Part shown: positions 8,654-25,090 of the stretch, one piece after another
Layout: each line of letters begins with the position of its first letter
Numbering within the stretch: position 1 is the stretch's first letter
Assembly (NCBI GenBank): GCA_014584465.1
Contig: JACTMU010000109.1
Coordinates: 37,805 to 101,804, forward strand
DNA length: 64,000 bases
From: Pseudomonadota bacterium
GTDB lineage: Bacteria > Bdellovibrionota > Bdellovibrionia > Bdellovibrionales > JACTMU01
Reading direction: 5' to 3'
Program-made: the position numbers and the translations under genes
Notes under the pieces: generated by a model
The model's database searches: none
What the model saw: the letters and a program-made list of their open reading frames with translations, nothing else
Told to the model about the DNA's origin: nothing

Positions 8654-8911
8654 CGCCCCTCCGAGTCAATAAGTCCAATCTTCAAATACACCAGAAGCCT
8701 TAACAAAATCCTGACAAAAATCCTGACGTATGACAAGACAAAAACAAACATCACCAAATTCAATGTTCATACGGATCTTAGGCGAGTTTCATCTTTGAAC
8801 TTCTTCCTTTTTTAGACAACAATGTTAAGAGAATCTGTACGTAGTGCCTGGTGCGAAACCTGGTTTCGCGCTAAGCACTACATAAAGCCAGTATGGCTGA
8901 AGGACAACAGG
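8654..8911. other. Divergent intergenic region of the polysaccharide locus
   Basis: About 260 bases separate the minus-strand sugar block from the plus-strand operon. It contains a tandem repeat ACAAAATCCTGAC/ACAAAAATCCTGAC near 8703-8728, AT-rich stretches and the family B palindrome at 8841-8881. No convincing -35/-10 pair could be fixed on either strand, though promoters for both blocks must lie here or nearby. Confidence 0.4.
8841..8881. repeat. Short palindrome of hairpin family B
   Basis: GTAGTGCCTGGTGCGAAACC is followed at once by its near-perfect inverse TGGTTTCGCGCTAAGCACTAC. The arm matches the terminal repeat of the longer element at 29534-29695 (GTGCCTGGCGCGAAACCTG) and the remnant at 23695-23713. 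It sits in the leader of the plus-strand operon, between the divergent promoters and the ParA-like start, and could form a transcript hairpin. Confidence 0.75.
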
Positions 8912-9715
8912 TTGGTACATTCCGGCAAGAAGATCATTTCGTTTGTCATGTGTAAAGGTGGAGTTGGAAAGACAACCACTGCCTTGCTATTGGCAAAACG
9001 CTTTCGCCAAGTTGGAAAAAAAGTTCTGGTCATTGATGCCGATCCTCAAGGAAATCTTACAGCTTCATTCAGTCTTCCTAGGATCAATGTCCTAGTGAAT
9101 GACAAAACTCCAGTGCTGTCGGACATCATCGCGAGGAAGTGCCCACTTCATGATGCCATCATCCATGTTGGAAAGGGTCTTGATCTTATACCTTCAACTG
9201 GCATGAACTCTTTGCTCGACCGTCGACTTGAACAAGTCCCTGATCCAATATTTGAAATGAAAAGAATCTTAAGTCTAGTTCGATCTGACTACCACTATGT
9301 CATCATCGATGTGGCACCAGCTTTGAATCTTGTCAATGCCTCGATCATCTACGCATCCGAACTTGTCATATTGCCAGTGACACTTGACGAGTACTCAAGA
9401 CAAGGACTCATGCAAACACTCTCAGAGATTGAAGATCTTCAAAGTCGTTTCAATTTCAAAAACGAAGTTCGAATTCTTGTCAATATGTACAGTCAGAACA
9501 AATTGTCTCTTCTCTATCTTGGACTTGTTGTAGAGACTATGACCGACAAGGTTCTTCGGTCGGCCATACGATATTCTCTACAAATCAAAAATATGATCTC
9601 AACTCAAACAGATCTTCTTTCTCAAAGGCAGTCCATGGCCAAACTCGATTACTCTCAACTTGCCAATGAGGTCATCACTCTAACTGGACCTAATATCGAG
9701 GCTCCCTGTGGCTGA
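8912..9715 (+). CDS. ParA/MinD-type P-loop ATPase of the polysaccharide operon
   Basis: The Walker-type motif CKGGVGKTT (14-22) with the ParA signature lysine, IDADPQGN (41-48) and VIIDVAP mark the ParA/Soj family of dimerising ATPases. It lacks the C-terminal tyrosine cluster and GEGKS motif of bacterial tyrosine kinases (Wzc/CapB), which normally partner Wzz-like proteins. A longer reading begins at 8822 but runs through the palindromic repeat at 8841-8881. TTG 8912, shortly after GAAGGACAACAGG, or ATG 8948 is more plausible. Its stop overlaps the start of the Wzz-like gene by eight bases, implying coupled translation. It could position or gate the polysaccharide machinery. Confidence 0.85.
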   Translation: MVHSGKKIISFVMCKGGVGKTTTALLLAKRFRQVGKKVLVIDADPQGNLTASFSLPRINVLVNDKTPVLSDIIARKCPLHDAIIHVGKGLDLIPSTGMNSLLDRRLEQVPDPIFEMKRILSLVRSDYHYVIIDVAPALNLVNASIIYASELVILPVTLDEYSRQGLMQTLSEIEDLQSRFNFKNEVRILVNMYSQNKLSLLYLGLVVETMTDKVLRSAIRYSLQIKNMISTQTDLLSQRQSMAKLDYSQLANEVITLTGPNIEAPCG

Positions 9716-11195
9716 CATTGATGAAATCTTAAGATCTCAAAAGTCTGAGATTCAAAAAGAACTGTACAAAAATCGAAAGAGAAATCGTCATGAAATGAGT
9801 CGCGATCATGAAACACGTCCGTGGCACTCACGCATCCCTCAATTTGGTCTTCAAGAGGAGATCGAGGAGTCCCTACAGAGCAAGTCCACACCTACAATCA
9901 ACAACCTCAACACCTCTGATCTACGGTCTAAGACTGCTTCTACGAAACATTTTCTTCTTCACCAGTTCATTTCTCAAAGCATTCGTGAACATTGGAAAAT
10001 CACTATTTTTGCCTGGTTCACTTTTCTCTCGATATCCTTTGGCTTTGTGTCCCAGATGCCCAACAACTATTTTTCTACTCTCTACCTCTTTGCCCCCGAG
10101 ACCAGTCAATCCATAAGCTCTCGACTCCCGTTGTTTTCTAATCGCGTTGAATACGCCTCCTTTCCGATGGAACTCAAGATTCCCATCAGCATTCTTTCAA
10201 GACAACTTCGCAAGGAGGATGCAAGAAAGTGGGTGATCTCCGAATATCTCTCTCATCACTCAGACGTTTCGCCCGCGACCCTTCACTTAGATGAGGTGCG
10301 TGTTGAGCCGGGCTACGTACCTACCACCGAAATATTGGTGATCGAGGGATTTGCTTATGATCCAGAGATGGCCAAGGAGATCACTGATCTCTATTGGCAA
10401 TACTTCAATCTTCAAATAAAGAGACTCGAAGACGAACATAGAGCACGGGTCCGAGATTGGTTTTTCCAGACCAATGCTTCCTTGGACTCCCAGATCGAAA
10501 CTCTCTTAAAGCGACTGGAACCCGATTCAAACGAAAAGCAATCTCCTGTCAATCTTGATATGACCTCGTCGAGGTTGTCAGAATCATTCACCAACACCCA
10601 AACTCAGCGTTCGCTTCTTCTCGCCGAACGAGATGAGCTTCTCAGAGCTCAAACGATTGAAGATCTGAACAAGCTTTCAGATATTTCAGATCGAGACATC
10701 AATAGCATGATTCAAATTCGACGTCAGCTCCTAGAGAGTCCCGATTCTCAACTCTACTTCAATCGTCTGTCGCAAGTGGAGGCCCAGATTCGAGATTTGA
10801 TAGGTCAAAAGATTCGCGAAAAGGATTCGGCTCTGATTGCGCTTTCTCAAAACAGTTCAGCACTCGAGAGACAACTTGGCTCTCTTCAAAAGGCCAGCCG
10901 ACAACGTAAGATTGTAGGGTCGATGGAGAGCGACCTCGTCAATCAAATCACCACTTTACGTTCCTACAAATCTGAAATTGCAAAGTTGAAATCCCAACTT
11001 GAACTTGAGCCCGAGGTCAACAACGTTAAGACAAAGGTTCTTCAACGACCCATAGCAAACCCAGATTCCATGCGCCCATCCCTGTCGACAAGGTATGGCA
11101 TGGCCTTTGCGATATCAACTGCCGTCACCTTGATGGCCACCCTCTTGATGTCACTGTTTCGACTCACAAACCGCAAAACTTCTGAGAACACATGA
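9708..11195 (+). CDS. Wzz/Wzc-like polysaccharide co-polymerase (chain-length determinant)
   Basis: 495 residues with the PCP layout: a cytoplasmic N-terminal tail of about 95 residues, TM1 at about 98-113, a long periplasmic part with predicted coiled coils (240-450), a Pro-containing segment VLQRPIANPDSMRPS just before TM2, and TM2 at about 465-485. These proteins set polysaccharide chain length and couple synthesis to export. There is no fused kinase domain. The tail is unusually long and charged. GTG start overlaps the ParA-like stop. The following glycosyltransferase starts in the ATGA overlap at its end. Confidence 0.8.
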   Translation: MADIDEILRSQKSEIQKELYKNRKRNRHEMSRDHETRPWHSRIPQFGLQEEIEESLQSKSTPTINNLNTSDLRSKTASTKHFLLHQFISQSIREHWKITIFAWFTFLSISFGFVSQMPNNYFSTLYLFAPETSQSISSRLPLFSNRVEYASFPMELKIPISILSRQLRKEDARKWVISEYLSHHSDVSPATLHLDEVRVEPGYVPTTEILVIEGFAYDPEMAKEITDLYWQYFNLQIKRLEDEHRARVRDWFFQTNASLDSQIETLLKRLEPDSNEKQSPVNLDMTSSRLSESFTNTQTQRSLLLAERDELLRAQTIEDLNKLSDISDRDINSMIQIRRQLLESPDSQLYFNRLSQVEAQIRDLIGQKIREKDSALIALSQNSSALERQLGSLQKASRQRKIVGSMESDLVNQITTLRSYKSEIAKLKSQLELEPEVNNVKTKVLQRPIANPDSMRPSLSTRYGMAFAISTAVTLMATLLMSLFRLTNRKTSENT

Positions 11196-13411
11196 GAAGA
11201 AAGCTTCTATTTGTCTCCTCATCGTCAAAGATGGGCGGCGCTGAGACCGTGATCCAAAATCTTATGGAAAAGTCGGCAATGAAATTTGAGTGCAAGCTTG
11301 CCCTTCCAAGAATCTTTATCAAAGTTCAATGCACTTATTGGAACGGTCCCACACTCGGTCTCCTTGGTTTGCTGCGAGAAGATGTCGATGTCATTCATAG
11401 CCATCTCTTTTGGGGTGGATTTTTTGTTCGGATTCGAAGACTCTGGGATAGAAACTTCACCTGGGTCCATACCATTCATTACGATGATTACGGATCGTTG
11501 CGGTTTGGTAGGATCAAGAGGTACCTTGATCACCACTGGATCTACCCAAGGGCTGATCATCTTGTTGCCGTAAGCGCAAGTTGCCAAACTCAATTGGACT
11601 GCAAGATCCCCTCTCTTCACATTCCCAATGGCATCGATCTGCATCCATGTTGGAATCAAGAACGAGTTCACAATCGACTCAGGTCGGACTCAATACAACT
11701 TACATGCACTGCAAGATTCAGATTTGAGAAGGGCCATGATCTTCTCCTCAATGCCCTTGAGGAGCTCAATCGCGGCAAAAAAAGATTTCACCTCAATCTC
11801 ATTGGTGATGGGCCAAGGATGAGATCCATTCAAGACCTGGTCCGCGAAAGAAATCTGTCCTCTTGTGTCACCTTTCACGGATTTACCTCCCCCTCGTCGA
11901 TCCTCAAGGAGACCGACATCTACGTACAGCCCAGCCGTTCTGAGTCATTTGGGTTGGCCATTCTTGAAGCTATGGAGCACTCCTGTGCAATCGTTGCCAC
12001 TCAAGTCGGAAACATACCCAATCTCCTTAAGTTCGGAGAGTTTGGAAAGCTTGTTTCTTTAGATGAGTGGACTGGGCAAACACTGGCAAGCGCCATTCTG
12101 GAATCTGCAGAGAACCTGTTGACCCATCGACGGAATGGCCATCTCGGCGCACTCCAATGGTCCAAGACACTCTCCAGCCAACGTATGATCGAAGAGTACC
12201 ACAAGATCTATGCTCAAGGACGCCCTACAGGGATTCTCATCACTTCACCGTTGGTCACGCAGGGCATAGGGGGTCTTCAAAGACAGATTCTACTTCAATC
12301 GAAAGCTTTGAAAGAGGAAGGCTACAGGATCTATCTACTTCAACGCCACGATCCACAGCTGAGTCAAAGTAAGGACCTTAGAGAGAGGTGGGCCCACCTT
12401 CACATCATTCAAACACCCTGCATCTTTGCTCACTCCCGTCGTCTCGCCGCTTTGACCTACATTCTCTTTGGATTCCTCCACGCATTTCTCATTCGACATC
12501 AGTTTGAGATTGTGCACGCGCACCAACTCTATTCCCCTACCCTTCTTGGCGCCATCATCAAACGTCTGCTTGCCAAATCTCTCGTTGTAAAGGTCACCGC
12601 TTCGGGAGAACTTGGAGAGGCAAGGGAACTTCAACGTCTGGGATTTAGAAGGATTCGATCTTGGGCCTTTGGCCAAATCGATCAGCTCCTCACCTTGGAT
12701 CCCTCAATGAGGCAAGAGATGGTCGATTTCGTAGGAATTCCCTCGGACAAGGTTCAAGTTCTTCCAAATTCCGTCGAAGTTCCGACGAGAACCACATCCC
12801 TCTCGTTGCATGGGGATGGCACACGAAAGTTTACAATACTCTATGTGGGACGCCTCTCTACGGAAAAATCACTTGAAACTCTTTTTGAAGCATTCCAATT
12901 GCTGCCAGAGCTTGGCAAACTCTATCGAATCGATGTGGTGGGCAAGGGGTACCGGGATCGCGACGCGGAGCCCCTCTTACGTCGACTGGCCCAAGACTTG
13001 AACTCTCATTTGGAGATTCGCTTTATGGGGTCCCAAGAAGATGTCAAACCCTTCTACCAGACTTCTGATCTCTTTGTACTTCCATCGCGAAGCGAAGGCT
13101 TATCCAACGCTCTACTGGAAGCAATGTCTTATGGCCTGTTGTGTGTTGTAAGTCAGATCCCTCCGAATGAGTACTTAGTTCAAGATGGCCTTTCTGGATA
13201 CACCTTTCCTGTTGGAGACTCTAAAGCTCTTGCAATGCTTTTGAAAAAGATTGGTTCAAACCTGACCTCTGAAGGTGAGGAGATTCAAAGGATCAGGCAG
13301 AACGCAAGAGCCAAGATCAGAGATCACTTCTCGGATCGGCACATTGGACATCAAATTCACCTCGTTTATGAAAAGATACTGCAAAAAACCTCCAATGAGA
13401 TGCTTCCGTGA
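11192..13411 (+). CDS. Two-domain GT4-GT4 glycosyltransferase fusion
   Basis: 739 residues hold two full GT4 enzymes in tandem. Domain 1 (1-340) begins SSSSKMGGAETVIQ and has SRSESFGLAILEAM near 248-261. Domain 2 (about 345-739) begins with its own Gly-rich acceptor loop (QGIGGLQRQ), has YVGRLSTEKS and SRSEGLSNALLEAM near 631-644. Each has a GT-B fold and an E-x7-E site, so the protein can add two sugars in sequence. The reading is continuous with no sign of frameshift. It starts in an ATGA overlap with the Wzz-like gene and ends in a GTGA overlap with the next membrane protein. Confidence 0.88.
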   Translation: MRRKLLFVSSSSKMGGAETVIQNLMEKSAMKFECKLALPRIFIKVQCTYWNGPTLGLLGLLREDVDVIHSHLFWGGFFVRIRRLWDRNFTWVHTIHYDDYGSLRFGRIKRYLDHHWIYPRADHLVAVSASCQTQLDCKIPSLHIPNGIDLHPCWNQERVHNRLRSDSIQLTCTARFRFEKGHDLLLNALEELNRGKKRFHLNLIGDGPRMRSIQDLVRERNLSSCVTFHGFTSPSSILKETDIYVQPSRSESFGLAILEAMEHSCAIVATQVGNIPNLLKFGEFGKLVSLDEWTGQTLASAILESAENLLTHRRNGHLGALQWSKTLSSQRMIEEYHKIYAQGRPTGILITSPLVTQGIGGLQRQILLQSKALKEEGYRIYLLQRHDPQLSQSKDLRERWAHLHIIQTPCIFAHSRRLAALTYILFGFLHAFLIRHQFEIVHAHQLYSPTLLGAIIKRLLAKSLVVKVTASGELGEARELQRLGFRRIRSWAFGQIDQLLTLDPSMRQEMVDFVGIPSDKVQVLPNSVEVPTRTTSLSLHGDGTRKFTILYVGRLSTEKSLETLFEAFQLLPELGKLYRIDVVGKGYRDRDAEPLLRRLAQDLNSHLEIRFMGSQEDVKPFYQTSDLFVLPSRSEGLSNALLEAMSYGLLCVVSQIPPNEYLVQDGLSGYTFPVGDSKALAMLLKKIGSNLTSEGEEIQRIRQNARAKIRDHFSDRHIGHQIHLVYEKILQKTSNEMLP

Positions 13412-14676
13412 ACTTTATCGTGATTGCACTTTACCTCACATTGACTCTGGCATCGATTCTGGGAATTGCCATGGGCCTAGTCTCTCGTCGATTTCTCTAT
13501 TTCTTCTTCGGGTTCACGCTGCTTCTACGTCTGGGCCTCACCTTGATCTTTGAATCTGGGTTGAAATACTATTTTGTCATTGACAGTATGAAATATGAGT
13601 ACGATGGTTGGTCCATTGCAAAATCTTGGATTGCCGGCTATCAGGATCTCTTGGCAAATCTCGAACGAACAAATCTGTACACCTACTTAAACGCAATTTT
13701 CTTTTATCTTTTCGGAAATGAGCCTCTCGTTATTATGCTTTTCAATTCTGTGATCGGAACTCTCACACTCTTTATCTTTTACAGGATCTCCGTTCGCCAT
13801 ATAGCACCACTCTTTGTCTCTGAAAAGGGACACCATCTCATTCTCAGTAAGATCTATCTTGGTCTCTTGGGACTCTACCCAGCCCTAACTGTTTGGACCA
13901 CAACGAACACAAAGGATCCCCTCTACATCTTTTTCGGGTCCCTGTTTGTCTATGTCCTCTTTGAAGCTCGTCAATGCTTTAGAGACTCCGACTTTAAGAG
14001 GGCGATGGGTTGGTCGGCCTCTTCTCTACCGCTTCTCTATCTTATTCATGAACTCCGATCCTATGGCACCATACTTCTTGCACTGGGCGTTCTAGGATCT
14101 ATGGCTCTCACCTTTCTAAAGGATTGGATTGGAATGGGTAGGGCACTCGTAGCCCTTGGCTCATTGTTGATTCTATCGGTCATCGCAATGTATGCATTTG
14201 CGCCCGAAACAGAGTTGGCCATTCTCAGTGAATTGTTTCAACGTCGACTCTCCTTTACGAATATGAACCTTGATGATGTGGCCAAGAGTTCATTCTTGAT
14301 CGACATCCATCTTGAATCGTTCTTCGATCTATTCTGGTTTGTGCCATCGGCTCTCGGCTACTATTTCCTAGGACCTTTTCCATGGGATATACAAAGTTCG
14401 TTGCAGGCCGTAGGTCTGGTTGAAGCATTTATAACTTGGACTCTTGCAATTCCAACCTATCTTGGATTTCGATCGCTATTTCAAAGAGATGCAAACCTGG
14501 CGTTGTCCATTCTTACGATGGTCTTCGTTCACGCACTCGCCCAGGGAAGCATCATCTCCAACGTGGGAACCATCTTTCGCCATCGGTCCTTTCCGTTTTG
14601 CCTGTTAGCTATCTTCACTGCAGTAGGTTTGTATGAAATCTGGAAAAAAAATTCTAAGAATCTACTCACGACTTAA
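13408..14676 (+). CDS. Polytopic membrane protein, Wzy polymerase or GT39-like
   Basis: 422 residues with about 10 hydrophobic segments. The first periplasmic loop, following TM2, carries DSMKYEYDGWSIAKSW, an acidic loop like that of GT39/PMT-type glycosyltransferases and several Wzy proteins. ALTVWTTTNTKDPLYIF fits the second region of that superfamily. In an operon with PCP, flippase and GTs, the repeat-unit polymerase is the missing function, so a Wzy role is the best guess; a lipid-linked-sugar transferase is the alternative. GTG start overlaps the previous stop; the last 44 bases overlap the next GT gene. Confidence 0.6.
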   Translation: MNFIVIALYLTLTLASILGIAMGLVSRRFLYFFFGFTLLLRLGLTLIFESGLKYYFVIDSMKYEYDGWSIAKSWIAGYQDLLANLERTNLYTYLNAIFFYLFGNEPLVIMLFNSVIGTLTLFIFYRISVRHIAPLFVSEKGHHLILSKIYLGLLGLYPALTVWTTTNTKDPLYIFFGSLFVYVLFEARQCFRDSDFKRAMGWSASSLPLLYLIHELRSYGTILLALGVLGSMALTFLKDWIGMGRALVALGSLLILSVIAMYAFAPETELAILSELFQRRLSFTNMNLDDVAKSSFLIDIHLESFFDLFWFVPSALGYYFLGPFPWDIQSSLQAVGLVEAFITWTLAIPTYLGFRSLFQRDANLALSILTMVFVHALAQGSIISNVGTIFRHRSFPFCLLAIFTAVGLYEIWKKNSKNLLTT

Positions 14677-15820
14677 TGTCGGAGGACCTTCGTATCATGT
14701 TGTAAATCTAAGCCGCGGCTTAGAGCAATACGGCTATACGACGCAACTTCTTGTGGGAAGACCGCCTGAGTGGGAAGGAGATCTATTTGATTATGCACGC
14801 GATCAGATGACTAAGGTCGTGGTTCTTGAAGAGCTTGGACCCAAAATCTCAATCTTCAATGATCTCATTGTTTTTCTAAAGATCGTCTATCTTATGATTT
14901 GCGAAAAACCCGACATCGTTCACACTCACACATTCAAAGCGGGCCTTCTTGGACGCCTCGCAGCTTTGGTGACGTTTCGCCCTACGATTGTCCATACCTA
15001 TCACGGGCACCTCCTCTCCGGCTATTGGGGAAGAGTACGAACCTTCATTTTGGGGTCTATTGAGAGGTTCCTAAATCACTTTACCGATGCCGTGGTCGTT
15101 GTTTCTGAGAAGATCAAAAAAGATCTTGAGACCCTTCATGTCTGCCCTATTGAAAAGATGCATGTCATTGAGTTGGGATTTAATATGGATTACCTCAATT
15201 GCGAAATTGCAGAGACGTCGGACTTACGGTTCAAATTAGGCATCCCAAAGTCCGGTATAGTCATAGGATCCGCTGGACGGATGGTTCCCATTAAGAACTA
15301 TTCGCTCTTTTTGCAATCCCTTGTCCCTCTTGCAAAAGAAAATCCCCTTGTCTACTTGCTCCTCGTTGGAGATGGCCCATGCCGTCCTGCACTTGAAAAA
15401 CTCGCTGATGAATTGTGTCAAACTGAAGGTCATATGGATCATGAGTTGCGATCGCGAATTCTCTTTTTGGATTGGATCGTACCGTTTCAACGACATCTTA
15501 AAGCGTTCAACATCTATGTTTGCAGCTCGAAGAATGAGGGTACCTCTGTCGCAGTCATTGAATCCTTGATCAGTGGTGTTCCTGTTGTGTCCACCGATGT
15601 AGGAGGTATGTCGGATGTGCTTGGAAATGGCCTCCGGGGCAAACTCGTTCCTCAAAGGGCGAATTGTTTGAGAACCGCCTGTCAAGAACTGATCATGACA
15701 AACAGTAGATCTGATAATTTCTACAATCTCAAAGAAATAGCCGTTCAAACGCAATGTCGATTTGACCAGGAACGCCTCTTTTTAGAGCTGGCTCATCTCT
15801 ACAAAGAGCTTTTATGCTGA
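14633..15820 (+). CDS. GT4 glycosyltransferase
   Basis: 395 residues in GT-B form: LNVGGPSYHVVNLSRGL at the N-terminus is the acceptor loop, VHTHTFKAGLLGRLA follows, and the C-terminal half has GSAGRMVPIKNY, LLLVGDGPCR and CSSKNEGTSVAVIESL (about 296-311), where Glu303 and Glu311 fit the E-x7-E motif. This type adds a hexose or uronic acid to a lipid-linked oligosaccharide on the cytoplasmic face. The gene starts inside the preceding membrane-protein gene and overlaps the flippase start by seven bases, a tight operon arrangement. Confidence 0.88.
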   Translation: MKSGKKILRIYSRLNVGGPSYHVVNLSRGLEQYGYTTQLLVGRPPEWEGDLFDYARDQMTKVVVLEELGPKISIFNDLIVFLKIVYLMICEKPDIVHTHTFKAGLLGRLAALVTFRPTIVHTYHGHLLSGYWGRVRTFILGSIERFLNHFTDAVVVVSEKIKKDLETLHVCPIEKMHVIELGFNMDYLNCEIAETSDLRFKLGIPKSGIVIGSAGRMVPIKNYSLFLQSLVPLAKENPLVYLLLVGDGPCRPALEKLADELCQTEGHMDHELRSRILFLDWIVPFQRHLKAFNIYVCSSKNEGTSVAVIESLISGVPVVSTDVGGMSDVLGNGLRGKLVPQRANCLRTACQELIMTNSRSDNFYNLKEIAVQTQCRFDQERLFLELAHLYKELLC

Positions 15821-17139
15821 CCCATCTAAAGGCTCGCTCAGATTTTGGCACTACACTGTTTACAAAAGCACTCATATTTGCGCTATTGTTTCTTCAAGGA
15901 ATTTTTATTGCACGATGGCTTGGTGCTGAAACCAAAGGAGCTCATGCCAAACTTCAGGCAAGCTGTCAATTGTTGGTCATCTTTTTTGAGATCGGTATCA
16001 GTCACGCAATCACCTACTTTGTTGCAAGTGGAAAACTGACCATTCAAAAGGCATTAGGATTTTCTATAATCTATGGTGGCTTCATTTTGTCTCTCTTTGG
16101 ATTGATCGGACTCGGATTTTCTTTAACTTCGTTTCTTGATTTTCTTTTGCCCTTGAACCTCCATGGAGCAACTTTGGTATTGTACCTCATCTTGTCGGCC
16201 ATTGCAGAACTTTTGCGGATTCAAATTGTTGCATTTTTGACCAGCCAAACTCTCTTTGCGGACCTCAATCGATGGGAACGCAATATTGCGATTTTGAGAG
16301 TCATTCTCTTTGGATCGTTCTTTCTTGGTCTCAACGTGGCCGCCTCTGAAATTCGTCTGGATCTCGTTCTGATTGCGGATCTATCTGTAAACATCCTGGG
16401 TTTGCTGACCTATTTATGGATCTACTCAATTCGAATAGGTAAATATCCCTCATTCGACTTTGAAGGGAAAAAACTATTTTCTAATGTCACCCAGTATGCC
16501 AGCCTGATCTATTTTTCAAATCTCATCAACTATCTCTTCATAAGAATTGATTACTGGATCGTTGAATATTTTCTTGGATCCAAAGAACTTGGTTTCTACT
16601 CAGTCAGTGTCGGCATTTGTCTTGGAATCACATTCATACCATTGACCATGGCCACCGTGCTCTTTCCCCACCTGTCGCAAGAGCCTGATGAGTCCAAAGA
16701 AGAGCTCTTTTCGAGTTATTCTCGTCTCAACTTTACAGGAATGCTCATCTTGTCGATCTTGATCTATTTTCTAGCACCTACGTTCATACCCGCTCTCTTC
16801 GGAGAATCCTATGAACCCTCTGTTCACTCCCTTCAGTTTCTCATTTGGGGATATCTCATTGCCGCCTTTCGATATCTTTTCGGGGTCTATCTCAAAGTGA
16901 CCGATGCCCTCAGATTGCGTGTGGAGTCCGACATTGTGGGAGTCATCGCCTGTTTTGCACTTAGCATGCTGGCAACTCCCCTTTTTGGCATCTCTGGAAC
17001 GGTCGCCGCCTTTTCAGGGGCCAACTTGATTGCCCTCGTCTATGTGATGTACCGAGGACGCCATCAATTGGGTCATTGGCACCAATATTTTATATTGCGC
17101 CGCGCTGATTTGCGATACTTCTTCAATATTGATTTATGA
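15814..17139 (+). CDS. Wzx-type polysaccharide repeat-unit flippase
   Basis: 441 residues with about 12 hydrophobic segments and the MATE/PST start pattern (GTTLFTKALIFALLFLQGIF, ARWLGAETKGAHAK). IDYWIVEYFLGSKELGFYSV in the middle is typical of Wzx proteins (RxDxxxLxxxxxxxxxGxYs). It moves undecaprenyl-linked repeat units across the inner membrane. Its position between a GT and an SLBB protein in a co-translated operon supports this. A second flippase of this superfamily is at 51.6 kb, next to an O-antigen-ligase-like gene, suggesting two separate glycans. Confidence 0.85.
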   Translation: MLTHLKARSDFGTTLFTKALIFALLFLQGIFIARWLGAETKGAHAKLQASCQLLVIFFEIGISHAITYFVASGKLTIQKALGFSIIYGGFILSLFGLIGLGFSLTSFLDFLLPLNLHGATLVLYLILSAIAELLRIQIVAFLTSQTLFADLNRWERNIAILRVILFGSFFLGLNVAASEIRLDLVLIADLSVNILGLLTYLWIYSIRIGKYPSFDFEGKKLFSNVTQYASLIYFSNLINYLFIRIDYWIVEYFLGSKELGFYSVSVGICLGITFIPLTMATVLFPHLSQEPDESKEELFSSYSRLNFTGMLILSILIYFLAPTFIPALFGESYEPSVHSLQFLIWGYLIAAFRYLFGVYLKVTDALRLRVESDIVGVIACFALSMLATPLFGISGTVAAFSGANLIALVYVMYRGRHQLGHWHQYFILRRADLRYFFNIDL

Positions 17140-17691: not shown

Positions 17692-19524
17692 GTGTGTGGA
17701 ATCTTTGGAGCCATTCTTTTTGGTGATGGTGAGTTTGACCATCAAGAGGTTGTTCAAGCACAGGCATCCCTTTCCCATCGAGGCCCTGATGATTCAGGCA
17801 CTTGGTTGAGCAAGGACCGAAAAGTCGTGCTCGCCCACACGAGACTCTCCATTTTGGATCTTGATGCCCGAAGTCGACAGCCCTTTGAAAGCAGATCGAA
17901 GAAGAGCCTTCTCACCTACAATGGTGAAATTTACAACTTTCGAGAAATGGTCCAGAGTGAACCACTCCCAGAACTGCGAACAACCTCAGACACAGAGGTG
18001 CTCGTGGAACTCATAGAGAGAAAAGGCGTTGATGGCTTAAGCCAAATCAATGGCATGTTTGCCTTTGGTTTTCTCTCGGATCACCAACTTCTTCTGGCTG
18101 TCGATCCTGCCGGACAGAAACCACTCTACACCTATTGGGATGGTCACCTCTTTGCTTTTTCCTCTGAAATAAAGGCTTTTCGTGCGCTTTCCAAATGCCA
18201 CTTTGATCTTGATAATGAAGCCCTTGCACAGTTCTTGGTCTACGGCTATGTGCCACTCTCCAAAACCCTCTTCCGACACATTCGAAAGCTCCCAGGAGGC
18301 CACTTTCAGATCGTTCACCTGACCGATGGACCACGAGCCATTGCAAAGTATTGGGATCTGCCACGAGGTGAGCGCCTCAAAATCGAATACTCTGAAGCCA
18401 CAAAAGAATTAAAAAGGTTGATGTCGGTTTCAGTCCAACGCCATCTTCACTCTGATGTTCCACTTGGATCTTTTCTAAGTGGTGGCGTGGACTCGTCCGT
18501 TGTTTCACTGGAAGCGGCTCGATGTATGGCGCCTCAACCGCTTCATACCTTCTCTGCTTCATTTGCACTGGATGGGCAAGCCAAACTTTACGATGAAAGC
18601 CTCTATGCCAAGATCGTATCTCAAAAGATCTCAAGCCACCATCATGTCATTCAGGTCGATCCACATAAAGAGAACGTACGCTCTCTTCTCAAGCACTTCG
18701 ATGAACCCTTTGGGGACAGCAGCTGCGTGCCCACCTCACAACTTTGTGAACGAACCTCTCAATGGGTGAAGGTGGCCCTTTCTGGAGATGGTGGAGATGA
18801 GCTCTTTGGTGGCTATCGCCGCCTGCGTGCAGCGATCTGGACCGAGTGCAACAAACCGTTGGCTCATCTGATCTCTCTTTCGACCCACCTTTTTGATTTT
18901 TCTCAGGGCTCTACCCCCGGCTATTTCATTCGCTTTAGAAACGCCATCCATCATACCTTGCTGGAACGCCTCAACCTCTGGAACATCTTTTTCGATGAAG
19001 AGGACTTCTTTCGCACAATCAGTCGAAATAGGGAGAATCTCTTTTTGGAGGCACAGCACTGGGAGAAACTCCTGGCCGATCTTGAGGTTGGTGAGCAAGT
19101 TCTTCATTTCAACTTTAAGACCTATCTCTTCTCAGATCTGCTCCCAAAAATTGATCGCATGAGCATGCTTCACGGTCTTGAGGTTCGTTGCCCATTTTTG
19201 GACAAAGAGTTGATTGAATTTGCCTTTCGCCTACCAACCCATTTCAAACTCACAACTTGGAAGGGAAAACGAATATTGAAAGATGCCTATCGAGAGGAAC
19301 TTGGTTCTCAAATTGTCGATCGACCCAAAAAAGGTTTTGCCTTTCCAATTGAAACGTTTGTGAACGGCCAATCTCAAAGCACCCATTTCGACCATGTCCG
19401 CAAACATTTTCCTCATGCCCCGGAGTCATTTTCGGACATCAAGGGACGCAATCGATATTATAAGTACTTTGCTCTTCTTTCCCTTGAAGACACCCTAAGC
19501 GAGAAATATGAAAGATCTATTTAG
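17692..19524 (+). CDS. AsnB-type glutamine-dependent amidotransferase (possible WbpS role)
   Basis: 610 residues. The GTG start is followed directly by Cys2 of CGIFGA, the glutaminase nucleophile, then SHRGPDDSG and TYNGEIYNF. The synthetase half has the pyrophosphate loop LSGGVDSSV (about 261-269), DEPFGDSS and LSGDGGDELFGGY. All active-site parts are present. AsnB makes asparagine, but very similar enzymes in polysaccharide loci (WbpS) amidate uronic acids. With WbpO/WbpP-type genes in the same locus, amidation of GalNAcA is the more attractive role; plain asparagine synthesis cannot be excluded. Confidence 0.88.
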   Translation: MCGIFGAILFGDGEFDHQEVVQAQASLSHRGPDDSGTWLSKDRKVVLAHTRLSILDLDARSRQPFESRSKKSLLTYNGEIYNFREMVQSEPLPELRTTSDTEVLVELIERKGVDGLSQINGMFAFGFLSDHQLLLAVDPAGQKPLYTYWDGHLFAFSSEIKAFRALSKCHFDLDNEALAQFLVYGYVPLSKTLFRHIRKLPGGHFQIVHLTDGPRAIAKYWDLPRGERLKIEYSEATKELKRLMSVSVQRHLHSDVPLGSFLSGGVDSSVVSLEAARCMAPQPLHTFSASFALDGQAKLYDESLYAKIVSQKISSHHHVIQVDPHKENVRSLLKHFDEPFGDSSCVPTSQLCERTSQWVKVALSGDGGDELFGGYRRLRAAIWTECNKPLAHLISLSTHLFDFSQGSTPGYFIRFRNAIHHTLLERLNLWNIFFDEEDFFRTISRNRENLFLEAQHWEKLLADLEVGEQVLHFNFKTYLFSDLLPKIDRMSMLHGLEVRCPFLDKELIEFAFRLPTHFKLTTWKGKRILKDAYREELGSQIVDRPKKGFAFPIETFVNGQSQSTHFDHVRKHFPHAPESFSDIKGRNRYYKYFALLSLEDTLSEKYERSI

Positions 19525-20401
19525 TTTTCTCGTAGGAGTCCGCCAAGTTTTAGGAATGCACCCCAACAAGAAGTCCTTTTTGTTGCTACTGACTTACGCA
19601 AAGATAAGATTCAAAAACTGGCTCAGCCGACATTTTAAACTCAATTTCAAATCAGAAGATTTTTTTGGTTACTCAATCTCTTTGATCGACTACTCGTCAT
19701 TTGCGTATCTTTTTGAAGAGATCTTCATATATAACATCTATGAGTTCACGGCCAATTCGGCAGATCCTTTCATTGTCGATGGTGGATCCAACATCGGGAT
19801 GAGCATCATTTACCACAAGTGGAAGCACCCAAAGTCAAGGATCATTGGGTTTGAGCCAGATCCAAATCTCTTCGATGTTCTCTGTTCTAATGTTCGAAAC
19901 AACTTTGGAGATTCCGTTCAGATCTACAACCATGCCCTCGGTAACTCATCTGGTCAGATCCGCTTTTTCAGATCCTCGCAGAGAGACGATCTCTCTCTTG
20001 TGGGAAGCCTGACTCAGTCGAAAGGTCTAACGGAGCAGACTCTTGCGACTCTGGCTCCTTTATCCAACTACCTGGACACAACTGTCGACTTTCTAAAACT
20101 CGACGTTGAAGGATCTGAGTGCGATGTGATCAAGGATCTTTTCAAATCAAAAAAACTAGATCTGATTTCAAACATGACCATTGAGTACCATCACAATCTC
20201 CGCGACCCCTCAACTCTTTTGGAAATCGTGGAATCCTTGTCGAAGTCCACATTTCAATTCTGCTTTGGCACCAATCGTTTACGCCCACGAGATCCAATGA
20301 GTTTGGACTGCTTTCGGTGCCCTCAGGATGTCATGATCTATGCGGCCAAGGGACCACCGGCCCCCACTCAAAATGAGGTCTCACCAGATCCGAAGTGCTA
20401 A
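19508..20401 (+). CDS. FkbM-family SAM-dependent methyltransferase
   Basis: 297 residues with the FkbM SAM site FIVDGGSNIGMS near 88-99, GFEPDPNLF, and DFLKLDVEGSECDV near 195-208. It methylates an unknown hydroxyl or carboxyl on the polysaccharide or its precursor. It is the last gene of the plus-strand operon and starts 17 bases before the amidotransferase stop. The FkbM gene at 1849 shows only general family similarity, so the two probably act on different positions. Confidence 0.85.
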   Translation: MKDLFSFLVGVRQVLGMHPNKKSFLLLLTYAKIRFKNWLSRHFKLNFKSEDFFGYSISLIDYSSFAYLFEEIFIYNIYEFTANSADPFIVDGGSNIGMSIIYHKWKHPKSRIIGFEPDPNLFDVLCSNVRNNFGDSVQIYNHALGNSSGQIRFFRSSQRDDLSLVGSLTQSKGLTEQTLATLAPLSNYLDTTVDFLKLDVEGSECDVIKDLFKSKKLDLISNMTIEYHHNLRDPSTLLEIVESLSKSTFQFCFGTNRLRPRDPMSLDCFRCPQDVMIYAAKGPPAPTQNEVSPDPKC

Positions 20402-23718: not shown

Positions 23719-23853
23719 AGGGGCTGTCCGGTAATTCCATTTTTGCCGATTTCTATAAGTTTTCCTTATACCTTCGTTGAGCCTCCTCGAGTTAGCGCCT
23801 CTGGCTAGCCCCTTATAGAAATCGATCAAAAAGCGAATTACCGGACAGCCCCT
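23719..23853. mobile_element. Complete hairpin (MITE-like) element, family A, 135 bp
   Basis: The ends are perfect 18-base inverted repeats, AGGGGCTGTCCGGTAATT and its complement, and pairing continues imperfectly inward (ATTTTTGCCGATTTCTATAAG against TTATAGAAATCGATCAAAAA). The middle holds a core, GAGCCTCCTCGAGTTAGCGC, shared with other copies. ATCT flanks both sides; alternatively the target is TA, since every copy begins TAGGGG or ends CCCCTA. No coding capacity, so it would have to be moved in trans. The hipA stop codon lies in its right end. Confidence 0.8.
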
Positions 23854-25090
23854 ATCTACCAAGATCCGCAATCCGTTTGAGCATCATCTCATCGATTTGA
23901 CGACTCTTCTTCTTTTCCATTGGGATCTCAAAGAGAATGGATCTGAATTTATGAAATCTCTTGAGCAACTTGTCCAATATCAACTCAATGGCACTCTTCT
24001 TCAGATCAAATCGTTGACCAAAATCGATAAAATGGGCTCTTTGTATGTTGTCGTCCCTGCCATTGAGTTTAATGGCCATTCGATGGTCTTTGTAGAGATA
24101 GGTGCAAATAAGATCATAGGCAGGGGAGAGATTGATTCGTCCTGAATGAGGGTGAGTTTGCAAACTTATGTTTTTGGCATGAAGGTCCCCATTTCCGATC
24201 AGATAGGAAAAGGCATAGAGTTCAATCAGTTTGAGCAGATCTATAGGTGGCGCAGTGGAGTGCTTCACAATTCCCTCGGCAATATCTCTTAAAGAGACTC
24301 GATATTTTTCTGAGGGATACTTATCTAAGAATTGACATGCATCTTCTTGATGCACCAAAGTGGGCCCGTGAGATTCATCCTCAGACAATCGATCAAATCT
24401 CTCGACCAAGAGACCCGGATTTCTTTCACTGTCATGGACAATCTTTGCTGTGCTCGTCGTCAATCCACAATGTTTGGCAAGTGCCAGGCAGTAAAACTCA
24501 TTTTGCACGAGGTTGGGCATTCCGGTGGGGTTGAGCTTGAGTATGTAAGACTTGTGGCGTTTTGCCATGTGTATGGGAAAACTGATCATTGAAGAAGAGA
24601 GCTTGTCTTGAACACCTGCCAAACTGTCACCAAAGTTGAACGTCCCCTCAAGTTCAAGGCTCTTTTCAAAGTAGGAATAGAAGTTGACCTCGGAGAGAAC
24701 AGGAACTTCCTGTACAGGACGATGAAAATTTTCAGCAACGGCATAAACATCTCCAACACAGCGCTCTCCTGCAACCGCAAGGATCGTAAACATATCATCC
24801 ATCGAAGTCTTGAGGTTTTTGACGAGCGCCTTCAGCCTGAGTCCCTCTGGCAAGAGACCCGCAAAGAATGGATGAAGATTGACTCCATGGACATCGTAGG
24901 GTTCCATTCGTTTTGGCATCGTGTAGGAGAGACCCGTGAAGTTCTGCAAGTTCACGGCCTCCTTCGCAAATTCAAAACGACAACCTCCATGACTTCGCCT
25001 GAGAGACCCAACGAGGCTGCCCTGCCGATAGATCCTCAGCTGATTCAACCCCTTGGGATCAAAGGGCGTCACGCACCCCCCCCTTTCCAT
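23852..25090 (-). CDS. hipA: HipA-family Ser/Thr kinase toxin
   Basis: 412 residues of HipA type: an N-terminal couple_hipA region (GSLRRSHGGCRFEF, LHPFFAGLLPEG), AGVQDKLSSS near 160 (GxQxK loop), SYILKLNP for ATP-binding Lys, LVERFDR, HQEDACQFLDKYPSEKY, catalytic GNGDLHAKN near 298-306 and LSPAYDL as metal-binding Asp. All kinase residues look intact. Members phosphorylate aminoacyl-tRNA synthetases and cause growth arrest. It overlaps hipB by 32 bases; GTG 25072 is a possible later start. Its TAG stop lies in the end of the hairpin element, so the original C-terminus may have been altered. Confidence 0.9.
   Translation of the reverse strand: MERGGCVTPFDPKGLNQLRIYRQGSLVGSLRRSHGGCRFEFAKEAVNLQNFTGLSYTMPKRMEPYDVHGVNLHPFFAGLLPEGLRLKALVKNLKTSMDDMFTILAVAGERCVGDVYAVAENFHRPVQEVPVLSEVNFYSYFEKSLELEGTFNFGDSLAGVQDKLSSSMISFPIHMAKRHKSYILKLNPTGMPNLVQNEFYCLALAKHCGLTTSTAKIVHDSERNPGLLVERFDRLSEDESHGPTLVHQEDACQFLDKYPSEKYRVSLRDIAEGIVKHSTAPPIDLLKLIELYAFSYLIGNGDLHAKNISLQTHPHSGRINLSPAYDLICTYLYKDHRMAIKLNGRDDNIQRAHFIDFGQRFDLKKSAIELILDKLLKRFHKFRSILFEIPMEKKKSRQIDEMMLKRIADLGR

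Follow-up and report, generated by a model that had tools for sequence, protein, structure and literature searches.

How bacteria place their envelope polysaccharide machines and share them out is poorly known. The question raised by the locus described here, which lies in a 64,000-nucleotide stretch of DNA (the window), is why a ParA-type ATPase should be coupled to an apparent Wzz-like polysaccharide co-polymerase (PCP). A sequence-only reading of the window had suggested that a ParA-like switch might position or time polysaccharide assembly, in place of the tyrosine kinase (BY-kinase) with which such co-polymerases usually pair.

The ATPase and its operon

The ATPase gene lies at 8822..9715 on the + strand and encodes 297 residues from its ATG; a second in-frame start, the TTG at 8912, has AAGGA ~8 nt upstream and would yield a protein of 267 residues. 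From the sequence, both starts are possible. The 34-residue N-terminal extension of the protein was modelled at low confidence by AF2, and the TTG may be the real start; a candidate amphipathic membrane anchor within the extension was rejected (moment ≤0.43, mean hydrophobicity near zero). The gene itself is real and intact, the sequence-only reading having begun it at the alternative TTG. Walker A (KGGVGKTT, 8954..8977, residues 45–52, with signature Lys45 and P-loop Lys50) lies in invariant columns of alignment A1, in which D72, D74 and Q76 of Walker A′ (IDADPQGN, 9032..9055, residues 71–78, including Asp74) are also invariant. Walker A, A′ and B are all intact, and K45, K50, D72, D74 and D163 are invariant.

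The protein scored 138 bits against Pfam AAA_31 (versus 27) and 43.7 bits against the BY-kinase model TIGR01007, below the curated cut-off of 108.05. Its last 30 residues contain a single tyrosine, and it therefore has no C-terminal Tyr cluster. Foldseek searches with an AF2 model built from nine sequences (pLDDT 78.7, pTM 0.81) gave Soj, ParA and McdA as the best PDB matches; BcsQ came 23rd, and the first 50 matches included no BY-kinase. In a maximum-likelihood tree the ATPase falls in a clade of partition ParAs (support 97/95), apart from Soj, from MinD/FlhG and from Wzc, although the positions of Wzc and of BcsQ (the E. coli K-12 copy, the remainder of a pseudogene) depend on long branches. 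Its sister is the ParA of genome G008 (100/97), and the clade comprises ParAs of this phylum together with others from plasmids or mobile elements, found in Piscirickettsia and Bandiella and on a Coxiellaceae element. On family scores, fold search and tree, then, the ATPase is a ParA and not a BY-kinase, as its ParA motifs and missing Tyr cluster had led the earlier reading to propose. A basic stretch near the C-terminus (IRYSLQIKN...) is common to the clade. The window ParA lacks the 60–75-residue N-terminal HTH-like domain that most relatives have, which is consistent with departure from plasmid-style autoregulation.

The ParA gene heads a nine-gene operon on the + strand, in which neighbouring genes overlap by 4–44 nt with one gap of 10 nt; no sigma-70-like promoter was found before it. 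The overlap with the PCP gene is eight bases (9708–9715), as first read. The PCP gene in turn overlaps by 4 nt a gene (11192..13411, 739 aa) that joins two GT4-type glycosyltransferase halves in one chain by Pfam, both complete. There follow a candidate Wzy polymerase assigned by topology alone (13408..14676, 422 aa, nine hydrophobic segments, no Pfam match) and four genes whose products were assigned by Pfam: a GT4 glycosyltransferase (14633..15820), a Wzx-type flippase (Polysacc_synt, 15814..17139, 11 hydrophobic segments), an asparagine-synthase-like amidotransferase (17692..19524) and, as the final gene, an FkbM methyltransferase (19508..20401). Between flippase and amidotransferase lies a gene for a small SLBB protein (PF10531, 17136..17681, 181 aa), an unusual Wza-like fragment with an N-terminal hydrophobic segment (signal or anchor) and a C-terminal TM segment but no polysaccharide-export domain. 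A divergent operon encodes nucleotide-sugar enzymes and an initiating polyprenyl-phosphate sugar transferase of the WecA/MraY type (PF00953, 6716..7633, − strand). By its gene content this is a Wzx/Wzy-type polysaccharide locus. Beside it the window also holds a gene for a HipA-like kinase (HipA_C and Couple_hipA, 23852–25090, − strand).

The co-polymerase candidate

The second gene of the operon (9708..11195, +; 495 aa) begins at a GTG with GAGG ~6 nt upstream, and very likely encodes a PCP, judging from profile comparison, topology and operon context. Two TM segments predicted from hydropathy, TM1 (9999..10055, residues 98–116) and TM2 (11103..11159, residues 466–484), flank a large periplasmic part, whose helix-richness appears only in a low-confidence AF2 model (pLDDT 44.5), and a Pro-rich, PCP-like signature, RPIANPDSMRP (11046..11078, residues 447–457), precedes TM2. 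No family in Pfam or NCBIfam matched the protein, the Wzz domain PF02706 included. In an hhalign comparison with a profile built from E. coli Wzc and nine PCPs of the class, ten in all, residues 336–488 scored 47.4, against ≤26.5 for 350 other real proteins and ≤24.5 for 150 block shuffles; the alignment takes in the final coiled coil, the Pro-rich stretch and TM2, the N-terminal part being unaligned. The label 'Wzz-like' given by the sequence-only reading thus stands at the level of profile comparison and fails at that of Pfam and NCBIfam, to which the protein is invisible.

Since TM1 spans residues ~98–116, the protein has a cytoplasmic N-tail of ~97 residues, close to the 95 first estimated. 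Only ~11 residues follow TM2, and a C-tail of the kind that activates a BY-kinase is therefore missing. The genome itself (3.75 Mb, 99.7% complete) has no Wzz-family match in Pfam and no BY-kinase above cut-off, and a sequence search of contigs gave no homologue of the PCP. Weak PCP matches in 99 relatives and 369 phylum genomes were discarded, the six that were translated being Lon-protease coiled coils and not homologues. Wzz-type PCPs were found in 11 of 144 genomes of the class, with BY-kinase domains or with no ATPase gene in the flanks seen. A second ParA–PCP pair, expected if the pairing recurs, was not found in the 369 phylum genomes; this tells in part against the earlier reading, but it is weak evidence because only a single genome stands for the window's family.

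ParA partners and their N-terminal tails

Profile searches of the class and phylum recovered more than 50 clade members, which scored ≥208 bits and were separated by a clear gap from Soj at about 145 bits; some of them sit on complete plasmids. Of the hits checked in a wider ParA scan most were Soj–Spo0J pairs, but the scan also yielded one informative element of a Coxiellaceae (L133). Directly downstream of nearly every clade ParA is a gene with a characteristic N-terminal start. Usually this is a basic tail of the form M[AP]D[LI]xELLKxxK…RP[WG]; in the Bdellovibrionaceae-like family f8 it reads MPSIKDFxxKKK...KRRP[GH], with a BolA-like gene next at several loci; and on short contigs and complete plasmids it is exemplified by MADLKDLLKTQKVKKFKRKEKSRPW, MPDLKELVEQRERKQFKKRSYRPWD and MATAEELLKKAENRKKKDKKKFQPTKRRAWD, after which come long linkers and in some cases a region resembling a winged helix. 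As a loose pattern, the RP[W/G] block is present in 36 of 52 clade partners and in 20% of background ORFs. ParA/MinD partners bind their ATPase through a charged N-terminal stretch, and the remainder associates with cargo or is cargo (PMC10241942). The clade layout would likewise be that of a partition partner, with a tail contacting ParA and a body holding cargo.

Several members of the clade differ in detail. Among the chromosomal members, in family f8 (L008–L031, L085–L093), most ParAs carry KGGVAKT and others KGGASKT or KGGSTKT, not KGGVGKT; these changes to Walker A are unusual, and the proteins are conserved apart from them. One partner of 127 aa (L098, genome G199) has KRRVW in its tail and a C-terminal hydrophobic hairpin, and is thus membrane-anchored. 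The window's own genome encodes a second clade ParA (L002, C58:12174-12911) whose 105-aa partner begins MPKVSDF...RRRRPGREES; possibly this ParA cross-talks with the PCP tail. In G008 (L094:7694-9653) the ParA gene overlaps that of a PlsC-like acyltransferase (PF01553) with the N-tail ...SRDAHGTRPWKAFG (GTRPWKAFG), which matches only the RPW block of the tag. Because it is the nearest ParA that overlaps this gene, the branch may have switched to envelope enzymes on two occasions, and the acyltransferase is possibly another such cargo of the same ParAs.

We found that the N-terminus of the PCP resembles these tails. The predicted ParA-docking tag comprises residues 1–42 of the cytoplasmic N-tail (9708..9833, +; MADIDEILRSQKSEIQKELYKNRKRNRHEMSRDHETRPWHSR), with RPW, its second block, at residues 37–39 (9816..9824). 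Among 62 window ORFs only the PCP has RPW within its first 80 residues, and counterparts of the block in ParA partners read ARPW (L077), SRPW (L095), YRPW (L133) and TRPW (L094). Under a ten-residue N-terminal profile the PCP start ranks best among 1,120 candidate starts in the window, and a gapless HMM of 13 plasmid-type tails, weak alone, gave it E = 0.4 (992 candidate starts). When the same 13 tails, with the window left out, were used to train a two-block profile, the PCP N-terminus scored 17.8 bits, within the leave-one-out range of true partners (13.3–28.4); of about 1,280 ORFs, the top non-partner came to 10.2. Some two dozen f8 partners outside the training set also rank at the top, and PCPs of relatives score ≤2.3. 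The PCP tail score was reached by 4 of 20,000 composition shuffles, although neither this nor the other tail-match figures are clean probabilities, because the two-block test was devised after the resemblance had been spotted by eye. Since its N-terminus matches the partner-tail profile, the PCP is probably the ParA partner, its cytoplasmic N-tail docking ParA and the remainder being cargo. The adjacent gene with a charged, putatively docking N-terminal tail that marks ParA/MinD systems is thus found here by the profile, and the N-tail is a candidate for the direct route by which ParA and PCP are coupled.

The co-polymerase as possible ParA cargo

The reading we favour, and hold to be reasonably probable, is that a partition-type ParA has been recruited to position or partition the Wzx/Wzy polysaccharide assembly complex. 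The ATPase would descend from the plasmid and chromosome partition ParAs of the phylum, whose downstream partners bear the basic N-terminal tail, and because the docking tail sits on the PCP's own N-terminus, the PCP would be partner and cargo in one. We infer that ATP-bound ParA dimers coat the nucleoid, binding its DNA, and that PCP tails, clustered on the cytoplasmic side of the membrane, engage ParA and speed up its ATP hydrolysis; the ParA gradient so formed would position, space or share out PCP complexes relative to the nucleoid. In this way ParA would be the PCP's cytoplasmic partner instead of the absent BY-kinase, and the C-tail being too short here, its role may fall to the long N-tail. 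For placement at a pole or a timing role, which the earlier reading had also considered, the analysis gave no support. A wider form of this proposal, for which we see about even chances, is that the clade swaps cargoes by means of a mobile N-terminal tag, borne by DNA binders, a soluble acidic protein, an acyltransferase, a small membrane protein and here a PCP; the polysaccharide machine would then be placed and passed on as a plasmid is, instead of being controlled by a BY-kinase.

The same pair could work without the nucleoid. ParA may have replaced the BY-kinase and position nothing, an ATP cycle driven by the PCP tail switching or assembling the PCP ring at the membrane and so setting polymer length or export. 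Its gene occupies the slot that belongs to a BY-kinase elsewhere in Wzx/Wzy loci, Wzz–BY-kinase fusions occur in relatives of the same class, this genome has no BY-kinase above cut-off, and ParAs and BY-kinases share a P-loop fold family. We nevertheless regard this as unlikely: the ATPase has no Tyr cluster, its clade relatives all resemble partition ParAs with partner genes, several of them on plasmids, and it has kept with the clade the basic C-terminal stretch, which is putatively DNA binding.

Membership of a clade of plasmid and mobile-element ParAs, and the failure to find a second pair in the 369 phylum genomes, would also fit a ParA left behind by, or carried in with, a plasmid or island, which stayed in front of the operon and still partitions DNA or has no polysaccharide role. 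Such an origin sits poorly, however, with a ParA that leads a tightly coupled operon with its motifs all intact, that adjoins no DNA-binding partner gene or plasmid genes we could find, and whose downstream PCP bears a partner-like tail, and we think it quite improbable. We give equally little credence to the proposal that the tail match reflects chance or generic basic disorder, the N-tail doing another job, such as glycosyltransferase contact, and the coupling being genetic only. Short basic tails do match easily, as the simple HMM value illustrates, and the RPW block alone arises in 3% of shuffles (601/20,000); both blocks together, in contrast, arise in only the four noted above, no non-partner ORF comes near the score, and the match falls in the exact gene where the clade rule expects a partner tail.

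The pair has parallels in the McdAB, ParC/PpfA and FlhG systems (PMC10241942), in which, as in the window, the gene for a deviant Walker A ATPase adjoins that of a partner whose N-tail is charged and probably disordered, and the partner is cargo or attached to cargo, as we propose for the PCP. The cargo here differs in being a two-TM PCP of the Wzx/Wzy pathway; positioning of cargo by ParA/MinD proteins is known, whereas in the open-access literature we found no report of a ParA–PCP system or of such a cargo. If the proposal is right, the partner tail fused to the PCP would tie exopolysaccharide assembly directly and physically to the nucleoid. BcsQ of cellulose synthesis, reported at the cell pole, is also a ParA/MinD-family ATPase of exopolysaccharide production (PMC9178275), but it has the deviant motif RGGVGTT, serves a synthase-dependent pathway with BcsR/BcsE as partners and lies far from the window ParA in the tree. 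The BY-kinases Wzc and CapB/CpsD likewise pair a P-loop ATPase with a PCP, and CpsD interacts with ParB, tying capsule to the cell cycle (PMC4574921). They are set apart from the window ATPase by its ParA-type Walker motifs, its want of a Tyr cluster and its score far under the TIGR01007 cut-off; moreover, CpsC recruits the CpsD BY-kinase through its C-terminal tail (PMC4574921), whereas in the window PCP the long tail is the N-terminal one and the C-tail is only ~11 residues.

Nearer in descent are the plasmid ParAs of Bdellovibrio, Piscirickettsia and Bandiella, most of them in the same clade, with a wHTH partner directly downstream. Several of these partners have an M[AP]xLxELLK...K...R[PA]W tail, like the PCP, but their terminal part is winged-helix-like, as would suit a protein that binds centromere DNA, where the window has a membrane PCP, and the window ParA lacks the N-terminal HTH-like domain. 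On the chromosome of B. bacteriovorus the gene order is parA1-bd1327-bd1328, the last encoding the BolA protein Bd1328, and a published knock-out had no measurable phenotype (PMC7186360). ParA1 (Bd1326) is probably a clade member, because chromosomal clade loci share the order ParA, KRRP[G/H]-tailed partner, BolA-like gene, an equation made by gene order and not by accession; unlike the PCP, the partner of the Bd1327 type is soluble, small and acidic. The tail thus offers a sequence rule for the cargo of 'orphan' ParAs in the phylum, such as that of the ParA1–Bd1327 pair, and the same rule helps to annotate 'hypothetical' plasmid partition partners in Piscirickettsia, Bdellovibrio and Bandiella. 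On plasmids of Piscirickettsia, Bdellovibrio sp. HAGR004 and Ca. Bandiella (L197–L203), ParA is followed by genes for a 'hypothetical protein', several with R[PA][WY] tails, and these are likely to be unannotated partition partners.
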